From: Escherichia ruysiae
Lineage (GTDB): Bacteria > Pseudomonadota > Gammaproteobacteria > Enterobacterales > Enterobacteriaceae
Length of the DNA stretch: 64,000 bases
Assembly: GCF_031323975.1 (NCBI RefSeq)
Contig: NZ_JAVIWS010000002.1
Coordinates: forward strand, 1-64,000
Direction: 5' to 3'
Of the stretch, positions 30,946-33,327 are shown in pieces; within the stretch, counting starts at the first letter, position 1; each line of letters begins with the position of its first letter. The translations under genes and the position numbers were made by a program. The notes under the pieces were generated by a model. It saw nothing but the letters and a program-made list of their open reading frames with translations, was not told the DNA's origin and did no database searches.

Positions 30946-30991
30946 ATCACTCCTAACGATATGAGTCATCACCAGAAAATCAGGATTAATT

Positions 30992-31051
30992 CGCCGGACT
31001 CTTCCCGGCTGTCACACCGAATCGCCAGGATGGTGAATCCGCAGTCCGACG
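30992..31051 (-). ncRNA. Stem-closed RNA element with T-arm-like hairpin
   Basis: Arms CGCCGGACT (30992-31000) and AGTCCGACG (31043-31051) pair over nine positions. Inside, on the minus strand, GGATTCACCATCC forms a hairpin resembling a tRNA T-arm. It lies between tRNA-Ile and ban and shares its architecture with elements at 32102, 32364, 32602 and 33040. Confidence 0.4.
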
Positions 31052-31175
31052 CTATGAACGGGGCTTGCACATTCCGGCTACCTGGTTCGTTGCCTGAGCT
31101 AGGGGCAAGGTTCCCCCTTTAACGTCACCAGACCGCTAACGACGCATGTGCCAGACGCCGTGTTACAACCAAATG

Positions 31176-31251
31176 TGGTGGCCCCTACCGGACTTGAACC
31201 GGTGACCGTGCGATTATGAGTCGCCAGCTCTAACCACTGAGCTAAAGGGCC
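31176..31251 (-). tRNA. trnI: tRNA-Ile(CAU)
   Basis: A complete cloverleaf with encoded CCA: acceptor GGCCCTT, D-arm TAGCTCAGTGGTTAGAGC, anticodon loop CTCATAA and T-arm GGTTCAAGTCC. The CAU anticodon could suggest Met, but the sequence closely follows the E. coli tRNA-Ile2 (ileX) type, in which the C is modified to lysidine to read AUA. P1 carries the equivalent trnI. Confidence 0.93.
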
Positions 31252-31254
31252 GGA

Positions 31255-31362
31255 TTACTGTTTACTAAGTGCTTCAATGGCGCTAACAATGCCGCCTACA
31301 ACTATGGCAACAATGATAATGAGAACAATTGGATACTTGTCAGCAAAATCCCAGAAGCCCAT
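31255..31362 (-). CDS. tciC: TciC, 35-residue membrane peptide
   Basis: MGFWDFADKYPIVLIIIVAI continues as a single membrane span and ends LSKQ. Its ATG overlaps the stop of the upstream tciB frame (ATGA), and it ends three bases before tRNA-Ile. By P1 order it is tciC, part of a small cluster suggested to affect tellurite or colicin resistance or division. Confidence 0.6.
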   Translation of the reverse strand: MGFWDFADKYPIVLIIIVAIVVGGIVSAIEALSKQ

Positions 31363-31526
31363 CACTGATCCTTCGAAGCTGTTTTAAATATCGGCCATAC
31401 CAATGTTACAGCTACTGCTACCAACGCACCGTCGGATAAAACCGACAGGACTGTGCTGGTGAAATCCACCAGCACAGATAGCACGAGAAAAACCAAAGCC
31501 AGAATTAGACGTGCTTTTATAACCAT
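31362..31526 (-). CDS. tciB: TciB, 54-residue membrane protein
   Basis: The protein has two hydrophobic stretches, LILALVFLVLSVLVDF and ALVAVAVTLVWPIF. The start overlaps the tciA stop (TGATG) and the end overlaps the tciC start, so the three genes form one coupled unit. Named from P1 gene order. Confidence 0.62.
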   Translation of the reverse strand: MVIKARLILALVFLVLSVLVDFTSTVLSVLSDGALVAVAVTLVWPIFKTASKDQ

Positions 31527-31951
31527 CAGATATACTGTTCCAGTGGCAATTGAAGAGCCTGGGCAATTTTCTTCAATTGCTCCTGCTCTTCTGCCCCAAT
31601 GCCATCCTGGTCAGCAATATCAATGCATAGGCACAGAACATCTACCGCATCATTAGTCCCGGACACATCAGCCAGCTCACGTAAAGCCTGGGCATTAGCT
31701 CGGCGCGGCGAGGCTTCATATTGAGCGCGAATATTGGCGCTCATCTGGGCAATTTCACCGGAGAACGGCGCAAAGGCAGGAAGTGCTGCAATGGTTTTTT
31801 CCAATACTGCAATTTCTTTCGCATCGCAGGTGCCGTCAGAGTATGCAATGGAATATGCGCCCCAGACGGTCGCTTCCACCGCATCACGGTTTTCCATCTT
31901 CTTGACTCCGCCAGCCGCTTTGCGGAATTTCTTTTTGAGAATGCCGAGCAT
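31526..31951 (-). CDS. tciA: TciA, TerB-like protein
   Basis: A 141-residue protein of the TerB (tellurite resistance) type: an all-helical domain with acidic loops, AYSDGTCDAKEIAVLEKTIA near residue 35 and DIADQDGIGAEEQEQLKKIA near 115, matching the D-G-x...E metal-binding pattern of TerB. Preceded by TAATGAGGTT. First protein gene after the structured leader of the ban operon. Confidence 0.82.
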   Translation of the reverse strand: MLGILKKKFRKAAGGVKKMENRDAVEATVWGAYSIAYSDGTCDAKEIAVLEKTIAALPAFAPFSGEIAQMSANIRAQYEASPRRANAQALRELADVSGTNDAVDVLCLCIDIADQDGIGAEEQEQLKKIAQALQLPLEQYI

Positions 31952-32101
31952 TTATTAACCTCATTACTGGTTGGGAAATAAGGTTGCGGTGCCGGGTGCC
32001 TCCCGGTGTCCTTTGGCTGGTTATCTACCGTGGACGGGGAAACAAGGAGAAATGAATGGACTGATATAACCATTTCCCCGCGTGCGCTTAGCCGCATTCA
32101 C

Positions 32102-32180
32102 CGCAACGGAAAGAGCATTCTTGGTGGACCTGTAGATTGGGATATGAACCCGTTACAGGAGAATGCTCTTACCTGTTGCG
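32102..32180 (-). ncRNA. Stem-closed RNA element 1
   Basis: An 11-pair stem (32111-32121 with 32160-32170) extends outward through CGCAAC/GTTGCG (32102-32107, 32175-32180). Inside is a second stem CCTGTA/TACAGG capped by GGG-ATATGAA-CCC, on the minus strand a T-arm-like GGGTTCATATCCC. The inner 25 bases (about 32131-32155) nearly repeat in element 2. Confidence 0.45.
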
Positions 32181-32363
32181 TACTCCGTTTCATGGAGCTA
32201 ACGGCGGGTGATCAGACCGCACCAGACTGGACTTATTTCAGCGTTATGCTCATGCCAGAGAATCAAACTGTGATGGTCGGTGCTGAACTCCGACACAGGG
32301 TTGTAGCAAGCCCCGCAAAGCGCGCACTACTGTAGTTGCGGCACATCAGCCTGTGCATTCACC

Positions 32364-32455
32364 ACAATGTTGAGAACACTGGTTGTCACGCTGCAACGCA
32401 ACATTTATTCGTAGATTGGGATATGACCCCGTTACGCCAGTGTTCTCAACGTTGT
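32364..32455 (-). ncRNA. Stem-closed RNA element 2
   Basis: Arms at 32364-32382 and 32437-32455 pair over 19 positions with a single wobble. The interior has the same core as element 1 (GTAGATTGGGATATGA then CCCCGTTAC) closed by one base pair that differs from element 1. Two unrelated outer stems around one conserved core suggest a structured RNA, not chance. Confidence 0.48.
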
Positions 32456-32543
32456 AGTGCCGGTTACGGTTCCGGCCAGGCCTCTTCCTCAACGGGGTGT
32501 TCTCCATACGGACTACCGTTTATTGGTCGTTCCTGCGGTTTAT

Positions 32544-32601
32544 GTTGTGAAGCCAGATGCTTATCTTCTGGTTGCTTCTAAGAGCTGCACTTCATCACAA
32601 C
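32544..32601 (-). ncRNA. Stem-closed RNA element 3
   Basis: GTTGTGA (32544-32550) pairs with TCACAAC (32595-32601), and an inner hairpin GAAGCCAGA/TCTGGTTGCTTC is present. It abuts the next element directly. It lacks the GGG-CCC core. Confidence 0.35.
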
Positions 32602-32675
32602 GGTAAGGGTACTTCGTAGGGATTCGAACCCTCTGCCAAGCACAGCGATCTCCGACGTCGCAAAATACCCTTACC
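32602..32675 (-). ncRNA. tRNA-like RNA element 4
   Basis: A perfect 10-pair outer stem GGTAAGGGTA/TACCCTTACC encloses, on the minus strand, a small hairpin (GCGA...TCGC) and a canonical T-arm AGGGTTCGAATCCCT on the 3' side. It looks like a tRNA with an over-long acceptor and only one other arm. It begins eight bases after the CCA end of tRNA-Thr. No anticodon arm can be drawn, so it is not an ordinary tRNA. Confidence 0.5.
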
Positions 32676-32683
32676 TGTTGTGT

Positions 32684-32759
32684 TGGTGCCGGTTAACGGA
32701 CTCGAACCGCTGACATCCTGCTTACAAGGCAGGCGTTCTACCAACTGAGCTAAACCGGC
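32684..32759 (-). tRNA. trnT: tRNA-Thr(UGU)
   Basis: Complete cloverleaf with encoded CCA: acceptor GCCGGTT pairs with AACCGGC, D-arm TAGCTCAGTTGGTAGAAC, anticodon loop CTTGTAA (anticodon UGU) and T-loop TTCGAGT. P1 carries the equivalent trnT. It lies two bases from tRNA-Asn. Confidence 0.95.
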
Positions 32760-32761
32760 AT

Positions 32762-32837
32762 TGGCGATGGAGGATGGATTTGAACCATCGACCCGTTGAT
32801 TAACAGTCAACCGCTCTAACCGCTGAGCTACACCATC
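32762..32837 (-). tRNA. tRNA-Asn(GUU)
   Basis: Cloverleaf with encoded CCA, D-arm TAGCTCAGCGGTTAGAGC, anticodon loop CTGTTAA (anticodon GUU) and T-arm ATGG-TTCAAAT-CCAT. The acceptor stem GATGGTG/CTCCATC has a T-T mismatch at the sixth pair. P1 itself is known for only two tRNAs, Ile and Thr, so this one appears to be extra. Confidence 0.88.
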
Positions 32838-33039
32838 ACTTGCCGGGTACGTCTCCGGCGAGGGCTTCCACCTCCGTATGCTTTTCGGCGCCCGCGCCCT
32901 GGCTGAAATTCGGTAACAGGGGATGCATAACCCTGGCTTCCAGCGTGATTAGCGCCTTCAGCATGACGGGATATACCCGTTACAAGAAATTATCCCAGGA
33001 TGCCATTAAGCAATGGCTGTTACGCTGAATGAAAAAGGA

Positions 33040-33121
33040 CGTAACAGGTAAGGACGCTGACCAAAGAGATGGCCCCTTCTCGCTCATCTGGTTAATCGAA
33101 CCAGCGCCCTTGCCTGTTATG
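33040..33121 (-). ncRNA. Stem-closed RNA element 5
   Basis: Arms 33040-33057 and 33104-33121 pair over 18 positions with one mismatch and two wobbles. Inside is CTGGTTAATCGAACCAG, on the minus strand a T-arm-like GGTTCGATTAACC hairpin. The left arm contains AACAGGTAAG, whose complement occurs at 32168 and 32670 next to elements 1 and 4. Confidence 0.45.
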
Positions 33122-33208
33122 CCTCCCCGTTCCCTAATACACAGACGGGGACACTCTGCGGTCGATTTTTTGACGGGGGACGACTCATACCCCGTGGCGT
33201 CAGGCTTC

Positions 33209-33289
33209 TTAGGCCGCTACCATCATCAGATCATCGTTTGCATTTACTTTAATGGTCAGTTTATAAACCGCCGCAAAGTCGCTAACCAT
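33209..33289 (-). CDS. 26-codon frame in the ban leader
   Basis: MVSDFAAVYKLTIKVNANDD and six more residues, with AGGG eight bases before the ATG. It starts 14 bases downstream of the UUCG terminator. Translation is possible, but the length gives weak support. Confidence 0.3.
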   Translation of the reverse strand: MVSDFAAVYKLTIKVNANDDLMMVAA

Positions 33290-33302
33290 GACGAAAACCC
33301 TG

Positions 33303-33327
33303 AAAAAACGCCCACCCGAAGATGGGC
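33303..33327 (-). terminator. UUCG-loop terminator in the ban leader
   Basis: On the minus strand GCCCATC-TTCG-GGTGGGC is followed by GTTTTTT: seven pairs, a stable tetraloop and a U-run. It lies about 180 bp downstream of the Op72 promoter region, upstream of the tRNAs, tci and ban. Confidence 0.85.

Follow-up and report, generated by a model that had tools for sequence, protein, structure and literature searches.

A phage RNA family with a tmRNA-like tag and a domain complementary to host tmRNA, and its possible role in swapping the tag in trans

Introduction

Phage-borne transfer-messenger RNAs (tmRNAs) have been described as whole molecules or as the tRNA-like domain alone, in Bacillus phage G, mycobacteriophages and DS6A (PMC4131195; see also PMC11915505), and as two-piece forms in marine phages (PMC9004378). 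In the tmRNA of E. coli, 12 nt separate pseudoknot 1, which unrelated sequence can replace, from the resume codon; the base four positions before that codon, A86, is important for function, every mutation there strongly cutting activity and a change to C or U leaving it unmeasurable in one assay (PMC2481249). Here we describe a tmRNA-related RNA, the tag RNA, encoded in the ban-operon leader of a P1-like phage-plasmid. The window, that is, the whole stretch of DNA analysed, comprises 64,000 nucleotides at the beginning of contig C2 (NZ_JAVIWS010000002.1) of Escherichia ruysiae, a genome of two contigs and 4.6 Mb, and its leader region is 95.4% identical to P1 across 5 kb.

An earlier note on this DNA had singled out the leader for an array of long-stemmed, tRNA-like elements and overlooked the tmRNA-related RNA directly 5' of the first of them. 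We put slightly more than even weight on the proposal that positions 33124-33300 of the minus strand give rise to an RNA, some 180 nt long, which takes over host tmRNA and swaps its tag in trans. Searches of open-licence literature listed no title or abstract opening that describes a tag RNA of this kind or an antisense RNA against tmRNA.

Results

The tag RNA family

In distant blastn searches with the leader, positions 33108-33299 matched phages of the Ackermannviridae and Schitoviridae, in stretches that carry no annotated feature. The module is also found in HK620, in the tRNA arrays of Felixounavirus and Kolesnikvirus, in Kuttervirus, Grimontviridae, Drexlerviridae and Schitoviridae, and in relatives of P1; in HK620 (locus L167, 1301-1522) it occupies the late leader, between the pR'/qut sites and the terminator tQ. 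Some part of a 231-nt member used as query was matched in 770 phage records out of 50,697 and in 666 E. coli genomes out of 5,426; not every match extends over the whole module. From 232 full-length hits we obtained 140 unique sequences, reduced to 49 representatives below 93% identity, to which the counts out of 49 given below refer. Some loci were retrieved by their tag pattern, which introduces a degree of selection on the tags found there; this search is the sole source of no more than five of the representatives (L107, L110, L121, L122 and L165). In the 49-sequence alignment, the window and L003 replace L122 and L165. As judged from these sequences, the module is a family of phage RNAs present in many phages of gut bacteria.

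The flanks of the module vary, consisting of promoter-like sequence (immediately upstream of the module in the Ounavirinae loci L168 and L171, by eye), of the UUCG hairpin seen in the window, of long hairpins or of a tRNA, which in L118 follows the module directly. In P1's record, a "dicF-like region" covers the 5' part of the tag RNA, and no RNA gene is annotated there. In the P1-like plasmid pHYEC7-mcr1 (L010, 1291-2460), we observed a tnpB-type gene within the island, inside a broken or rearranged copy of the module.

The tag frame

A frame of exactly ten codons beginning GCN AAY, as in a tmRNA tag, is present in 139 of the 140 unique sequences; the remaining one, L216, has ten codons as well, with AAA at codon 2. 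Beside the tag of the window (Table 1), the family encodes ANDNAFLMAA in Serratia phage 3M, ANDNEFKVAA in Erwinia phage Ea2809 and ANDDVVLMAA in PD205. The last codon specifies alanine in all 48 readable cases, by way of GCG (17), GCT (16) or GCC (15), and codon 7 is leucine in 45 of the 49 representatives. Ahead of the resume codon, position -4 is always occupied by A (49 of 49), as in tmRNA, and position -5 by T in 48. Glu-Asn at codons 4-5 occurs in no phage tag, codon 5 never being Asn among the 49; the same two codons of host tmRNA, which do encode Glu-Asn, lie under the antisense domain described below.

A peptide starting at an ATG ahead of the tag in P1 was considered and set aside, the ATG not being conserved in the alignment. 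As a separate observation, the tag-pattern search returned ordinary tmRNAs above the Rfam cut-off in the IMG/VR contigs L105, L106, L117, L134, L139, L151, L156 and L159, and their tags, ANDNAFLMAA for example, coincide with tags of the phage module.

Fold of the module

The tag is followed by a helix around the stop codon and two predicted H-type pseudoknots, placed as in tmRNA. Changes on both sides were found in 20 of the 22 pairs of the alignment, and doubly changed cells numbered 169, compared with 46.5 (standard deviation 8.8) in shuffles, none of 500 shuffles reaching 169. When the pairing partners were slid along the alignment, paired cells fell from 91% to 37-47%, a control in which the structure was derived from one aligned sequence and is favoured at its own place for that reason. 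Scored sequence by sequence, the first pseudoknot gave a weak signal, about 10% of shuffles attaining the real median; it is covariation, not these per-sequence scores, that argues for the pseudoknots. The two lie after the tag, in keeping with the mRNA-like domain of tmRNA, and none was established before it.

On the module, ARAGORN and Rfam searches detected no tRNA-like domain (acceptor stem, T-arm and CCA end), and ARAGORN made no tmRNA call for the window or for any of ten related loci. The window does not reach the Rfam gathering scores, with 25.7 of 47 bits for tmRNA_permuted and 17 of 84 for beta_tmRNA, nor does the highest-scoring relative seen, L003, at 33.5 of 47 bits; the tag and first pseudoknot can be aligned, below threshold, to permuted tmRNA of the beta type. 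Inspection by eye, like ARAGORN and Rfam, revealed no complete or permuted tmRNA with a tRNA-like domain of its own. Finders of tmRNA depend on the tRNA-like domain, and the lack of one here may be why the module has escaped notice; in the permuted Rfam model, all pairs belong to that domain (PMC11915505).

Complementarity to host tmRNA

The 5' domain, made up of the 30-50 nt ahead of the phage tag, is predicted to pair with the tmRNA of the same genome (Table 1). The paired region takes in the 3' part of pseudoknot 1, UAGUC, the resume codon and the first five tag codons, some As being looped out. In all 49 representatives, the best duplex to be had within the 363-nt host tmRNA includes the resume codon. 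Its energy beats all 100 shuffles of the same sequence in 38 of them, and z scores against dinucleotide shuffles ran from -2.3 to -7.5 in the 41 representatives scored. The complementarity is beyond chance and at a fixed site, with seven short forms not significant by energy.

Twenty-five tmRNA variants, drawn from 30 loci within the same order, were compared as targets; the E. coli type gave the best mean energy (-39.9 kcal/mol; the next were -39.5, -39.5 and -39.1, close variants differing little) and was best or tied for 30 of the 49 representatives. The 5' domain favours the host tag region over the one on its own RNA in 49 of 49 (mean -21.4 versus -12.6 kcal/mol), and its self-fold is weak, averaging -5.4 kcal/mol. 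A 14-mer of L143 has a single occurrence in the host genome, antisense in ssrA.

Long-stemmed hairpins and neighbouring RNAs

Downstream of the module on the same strand lie the elements that the earlier note had described, each as a long closing stem around a T-arm-like hairpin. The stems are real: we recovered them on the minus strand at 33038, 32602, 32360, 32108 and about 30992 (Table 1), and across 93 non-redundant islands of related loci (152,076 bases) counted 221 such stems versus 35 by the same criteria in one dinucleotide shuffle per island. A tRNA-Asn, a tRNA-Thr and a CAU tRNA stand among them, where that note had named tRNA-Asn, -Thr and -Ile. Its remark that no protein gene fits this stretch is fair. 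In P1's record, upl and plp are annotated on the strand opposite to the hairpins, and plp covers hairpins and overlaps the tRNA-Thr on the other strand (L001, 4342-4719 and 4690-4765); in the window, the corresponding opposite strand holds frames of 109 and 81 amino acids only. The plp annotation of P1 may be spurious.

The hairpins are modular: they recur in unrelated enterobacterial phages, their inner parts exchanged. Similar stems enclose different inner parts at one position in P7 and P1, the P7 inner part being nearly identical to that of the IMG/VR locus L109. A closing stem of type CACAACGTTGAGAACACTGG is shared by the window, Serratia phage Kevin and a Klebsiella phage-plasmid, so that the earlier proposal of a recurrent structured-RNA family in the ban leader is supported. 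Within the window's set, the stem type of 32360 is common to Serratia and Klebsiella phage loci; P7 and Ro157 carry a different inner part at the place of 32602, and D6 and P7 another stem and inner part near that of 32108. The place of the UUCG hairpin is taken in other phages by a longer hairpin with a variable inner part or by promoter-like sequence. The elements at 32108 and 32360 share, with one difference, the 25-base core GTAACGGGKTCATATCCCAATCTAC already noticed, and the 11-mer CTTACCTGTTG occurs at 32168 and 32670 as claimed; its complement, said to lie in a third element, matches 10 of 11 bases at 33042-33052.

Likeness to tRNA is uneven. The hairpin at 32602 contains a clear T-arm, GAGGGTTCGAATCCCTA; those at 32108 and 32360 have loops, TTCATAT and GTCATAT, that are non-canonical as T-loops, and that at 33038 resembles a T-arm only in its shape of five pairs and seven bases, so the claim of such a hairpin in every element stands in part. 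After exclusion of eight inner parts that overlap an ARAGORN tRNA, 11 of 118 distinct inner parts contain a perfect T-arm; 100 mononucleotide shuffles gave 0.21 on average and never more than 3. The T-arm lies 1-6 bases before the 3' strand in six of the 11, as in tRNA, and 0-2 bases after the 5' strand in four. Though enriched, the T-arm is not a general trait of the hairpins, being absent from 107 of the 118, and the tRNA-like reading holds for some of them. Hairpins resembling anticodon loops are at chance level in the inner parts (10 of 126, versus 7.4 in shuffles) and therefore give no support to the suggestion that the elements are decoys for tRNA-directed nucleases. A conserved G-U pair as an alanine signal was considered for the long stems and rejected; by eye, it is present in many stems, not all. 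The long-stemmed hairpins are a modular set of RNAs separate from the tag RNA, some of them tRNA-like.

Table 1. Features of the leader region, in positions of the window
Feature	Positions	Strand	Basis or remarks
Tag RNA module: antisense domain, tag, stop-codon helix, two pseudoknots	33124..33300	-	Family by blastn and nhmmer
5' domain complementary to host tmRNA nt 56-106	33253..33300	-	Predicted duplex of -45.3 kcal/mol with tmRNA of the same genome
Tag frame GCA...TAA, ANDDLMMVAA	33209..33241	-	Conserved frame, synonymous variation
First predicted H-type pseudoknot after the tag (ACGGGG/CCCCGT, GTCG/CGAC)	33161..33195	-	Covariation
Second predicted H-type pseudoknot (CGCAG/CTGTG, TCCCCGT/ACGGGGA)	33124..33160	-	Covariation
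Hairpin with UUCG loop, directly 5' of the tag RNA	33310..33327	-	Sequence, positions, other loci
Long-stemmed hairpin directly 3' of the tag RNA	33038..33123	-	23 pairs, 2 mismatches; counterparts in P1, P7 and D6
tRNA-Asn (GTT)	32762..32837	-	ARAGORN
tRNA-Thr (TGT)	32684..32759	-	ARAGORN
Long-stemmed hairpin with perfect T-arm	32602..32675	-	15 pairs and further outer pairs
Long-stemmed hairpin with 25-base core	32360..32459	-	22 pairs, 1 mismatch
Long-stemmed hairpin with 25-base core and CCACCA	32108..32173	-	13 pairs, 1 mismatch
CAU tRNA	31176..31251	-	Ile2 in P1's record; Met by ARAGORN
Hairpin	near 30992-31051	-	About 9 closing pairs, GU counted; by eye

Several other RNAs were compared with the island. 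Positions 31985-32105 of the minus strand, at the 3' side of the last long-stemmed hairpin, align with STnc100 (RF02076) at an E value of 6.3e-6 and 36.5 bits, the gathering score being 47, and a similar sequence, GTGGTGAATGCG..., follows such hairpins in several phages; at E values of 0.5 or less, STnc100 matched neither L167 nor L109 nor any of six further loci searched. In a scan of 576 slice-target pairs between further parts of the island and other host RNAs, one pair joined 32831-32875 of the minus strand to host 4.5S RNA (predicted -51.4 kcal/mol, z -4.3). Host rnpB was rejected as a pairing partner: its z of -6.4 with HK620 reflected likeness, and direct alignment was no better than shuffles. 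The 11-mer CAGGTAAGGGT is common to the stem of 32602-32675 and host RNase P RNA, this alignment likewise being no better than shuffles. The RNAs rnaC and rnaD of T4 resemble the present ones in being phage RNAs beside tRNA genes, and rnaC (L262, 909-1047) has a perfect T-arm adjoining its 3' end, like some long-stemmed hairpins of the window; their function is called unknown in PMC9697503. As relatives of the tag RNA they were dismissed, neither showing an ssrA-like tag in three-frame translation.

Discussion

The existence of the family, its tag frame, its structure and its complementarity to tmRNA can all be read from sequence comparison. What we infer beyond this is that the hybrid with host tmRNA forms in cells and works in trans-translation, and that the tag is swapped. 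For an RNA that carries a tag with no detected tRNA-like domain and, in addition, an antisense domain directed at the tmRNA resume site, a swap of the tag in trans would be the simplest account, and the failure of ARAGORN and Rfam to find a tRNA-like domain fits the borrowing of the host's. Pairing would start at the host tag codons and run back through the resume codon, opening pseudoknot 1; the duplex would then hide the host resume codon, and the intermolecular helix would replace the pseudoknot. The phage resume codon would be left about 10 nt past the new helix, near the charged tRNA-like domain of the host and SmpB, and the rescued ribosome would read the phage tag, here ANDDLMMVAA, in place of the host ANDENYALAA. 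The broader picture, toward which we lean cautiously on the strength of these comparisons, would be that of a widespread class of phage RNAs that strand-invades host tmRNA and reprograms ribosome rescue, one working tmRNA being formed from a host and a viral molecule.

Several observations weigh against a swap of the tag. The duplex does not beat all shuffles in 11 of the 49 representatives, namely L172, L009, L060, L126 (a tie) and the seven short forms (L168, L171, L251, L258, L211, L239 and L011), for which z lies between -2.2 and +0.1. For the P1-type member L015, only 0.1 kcal/mol separates the duplex from the best shuffle, and z is only -2.4 for a slice of 45 nt from the window's RNA. 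The target site in E. coli is partly folded into pseudoknot 1, and duplex energies ignore the folding of tmRNA. A GAG codon predicted in tmRNA of the Serratia/Erwinia type was not found by pattern search of genome contigs. Moreover, the 49 representatives are related, so that agreement in 49 of 49 does not amount to 49 independent events.

The main rival is that the RNA is an antisense inhibitor, masking the resume codon and tag of tmRNA and lowering trans-translation while its own tag goes unused. The same complementarity would serve this end, and an RNA consisting only of a tRNA-like domain, of the mycobacteriophage DS6A type, is reported to inhibit tmRNA (PMC4131195 and PMC11915505). A mere mask, however, needs neither a ten-codon frame with synonymous change nor an A at -4 nor a helix around the stop codon, and we regard inhibition as possible but doubtful. 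We think it unlikely that the module is instead a self-sufficient tmRNA variant, whose charged tRNA-like domain would come unrecognised from a neighbouring hairpin or from another phage RNA. The module is otherwise tmRNA-like throughout, and some adjacent hairpins hold T-arms, as do the 5' hairpins of L170 and L147; yet the flanks vary from promoter-like sequence to UUCG hairpin, long hairpin or tRNA, ARAGORN and Rfam found no CCA-ended tRNA-like domain, and the antisense domain would be left unexplained.

The view taken by the earlier note, of tRNA relics or decoys made from the ban leader, would make the conserved upstream RNA one more structured leader RNA. The strong over-representation of long stems and the perfect T-arms in 11 inner parts speak for it, and for the hairpins themselves a relic or decoy nature is possible. 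For the conserved RNA we judge it very improbable: most inner parts are without a T-arm, anticodon-like loops stand at chance, and the RNA itself combines a tag frame with pseudoknots like those of tmRNA and is not shaped like a tRNA.

If tag swapping is correct, phages would re-edit trans-translation through RNA-RNA pairing, beyond copying or blocking it. This would apply to P1, to HK620 and to common lytic phages of Salmonella, Klebsiella and E. coli, and would account for a recurrent, mostly unannotated stretch of their genomes. It would also set a precedent in nature for assembling a tmRNA in trans, and what ssrA tagging does during infection could then be tested directly in E. coli K-12.

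Among known systems, tmRNA, in its standard and its permuted two-piece forms (RF00023, RF01849, RF01850, RF04321), is like the module in having a resume codon with A at -4, a ten-codon AND...A tag, a helix around the stop codon and pseudoknots after the tag. Unlike tmRNA, the module has, in place of a detectable tRNA-like domain, a 5' domain antisense to the host molecule. Trans-acting antisense small RNAs and RNA sponges likewise pair with another RNA in trans, as the tag RNA would if it swaps the tag; unlike them, it would have the tmRNA resume site as its target and carry a proposed translated tag of its own.

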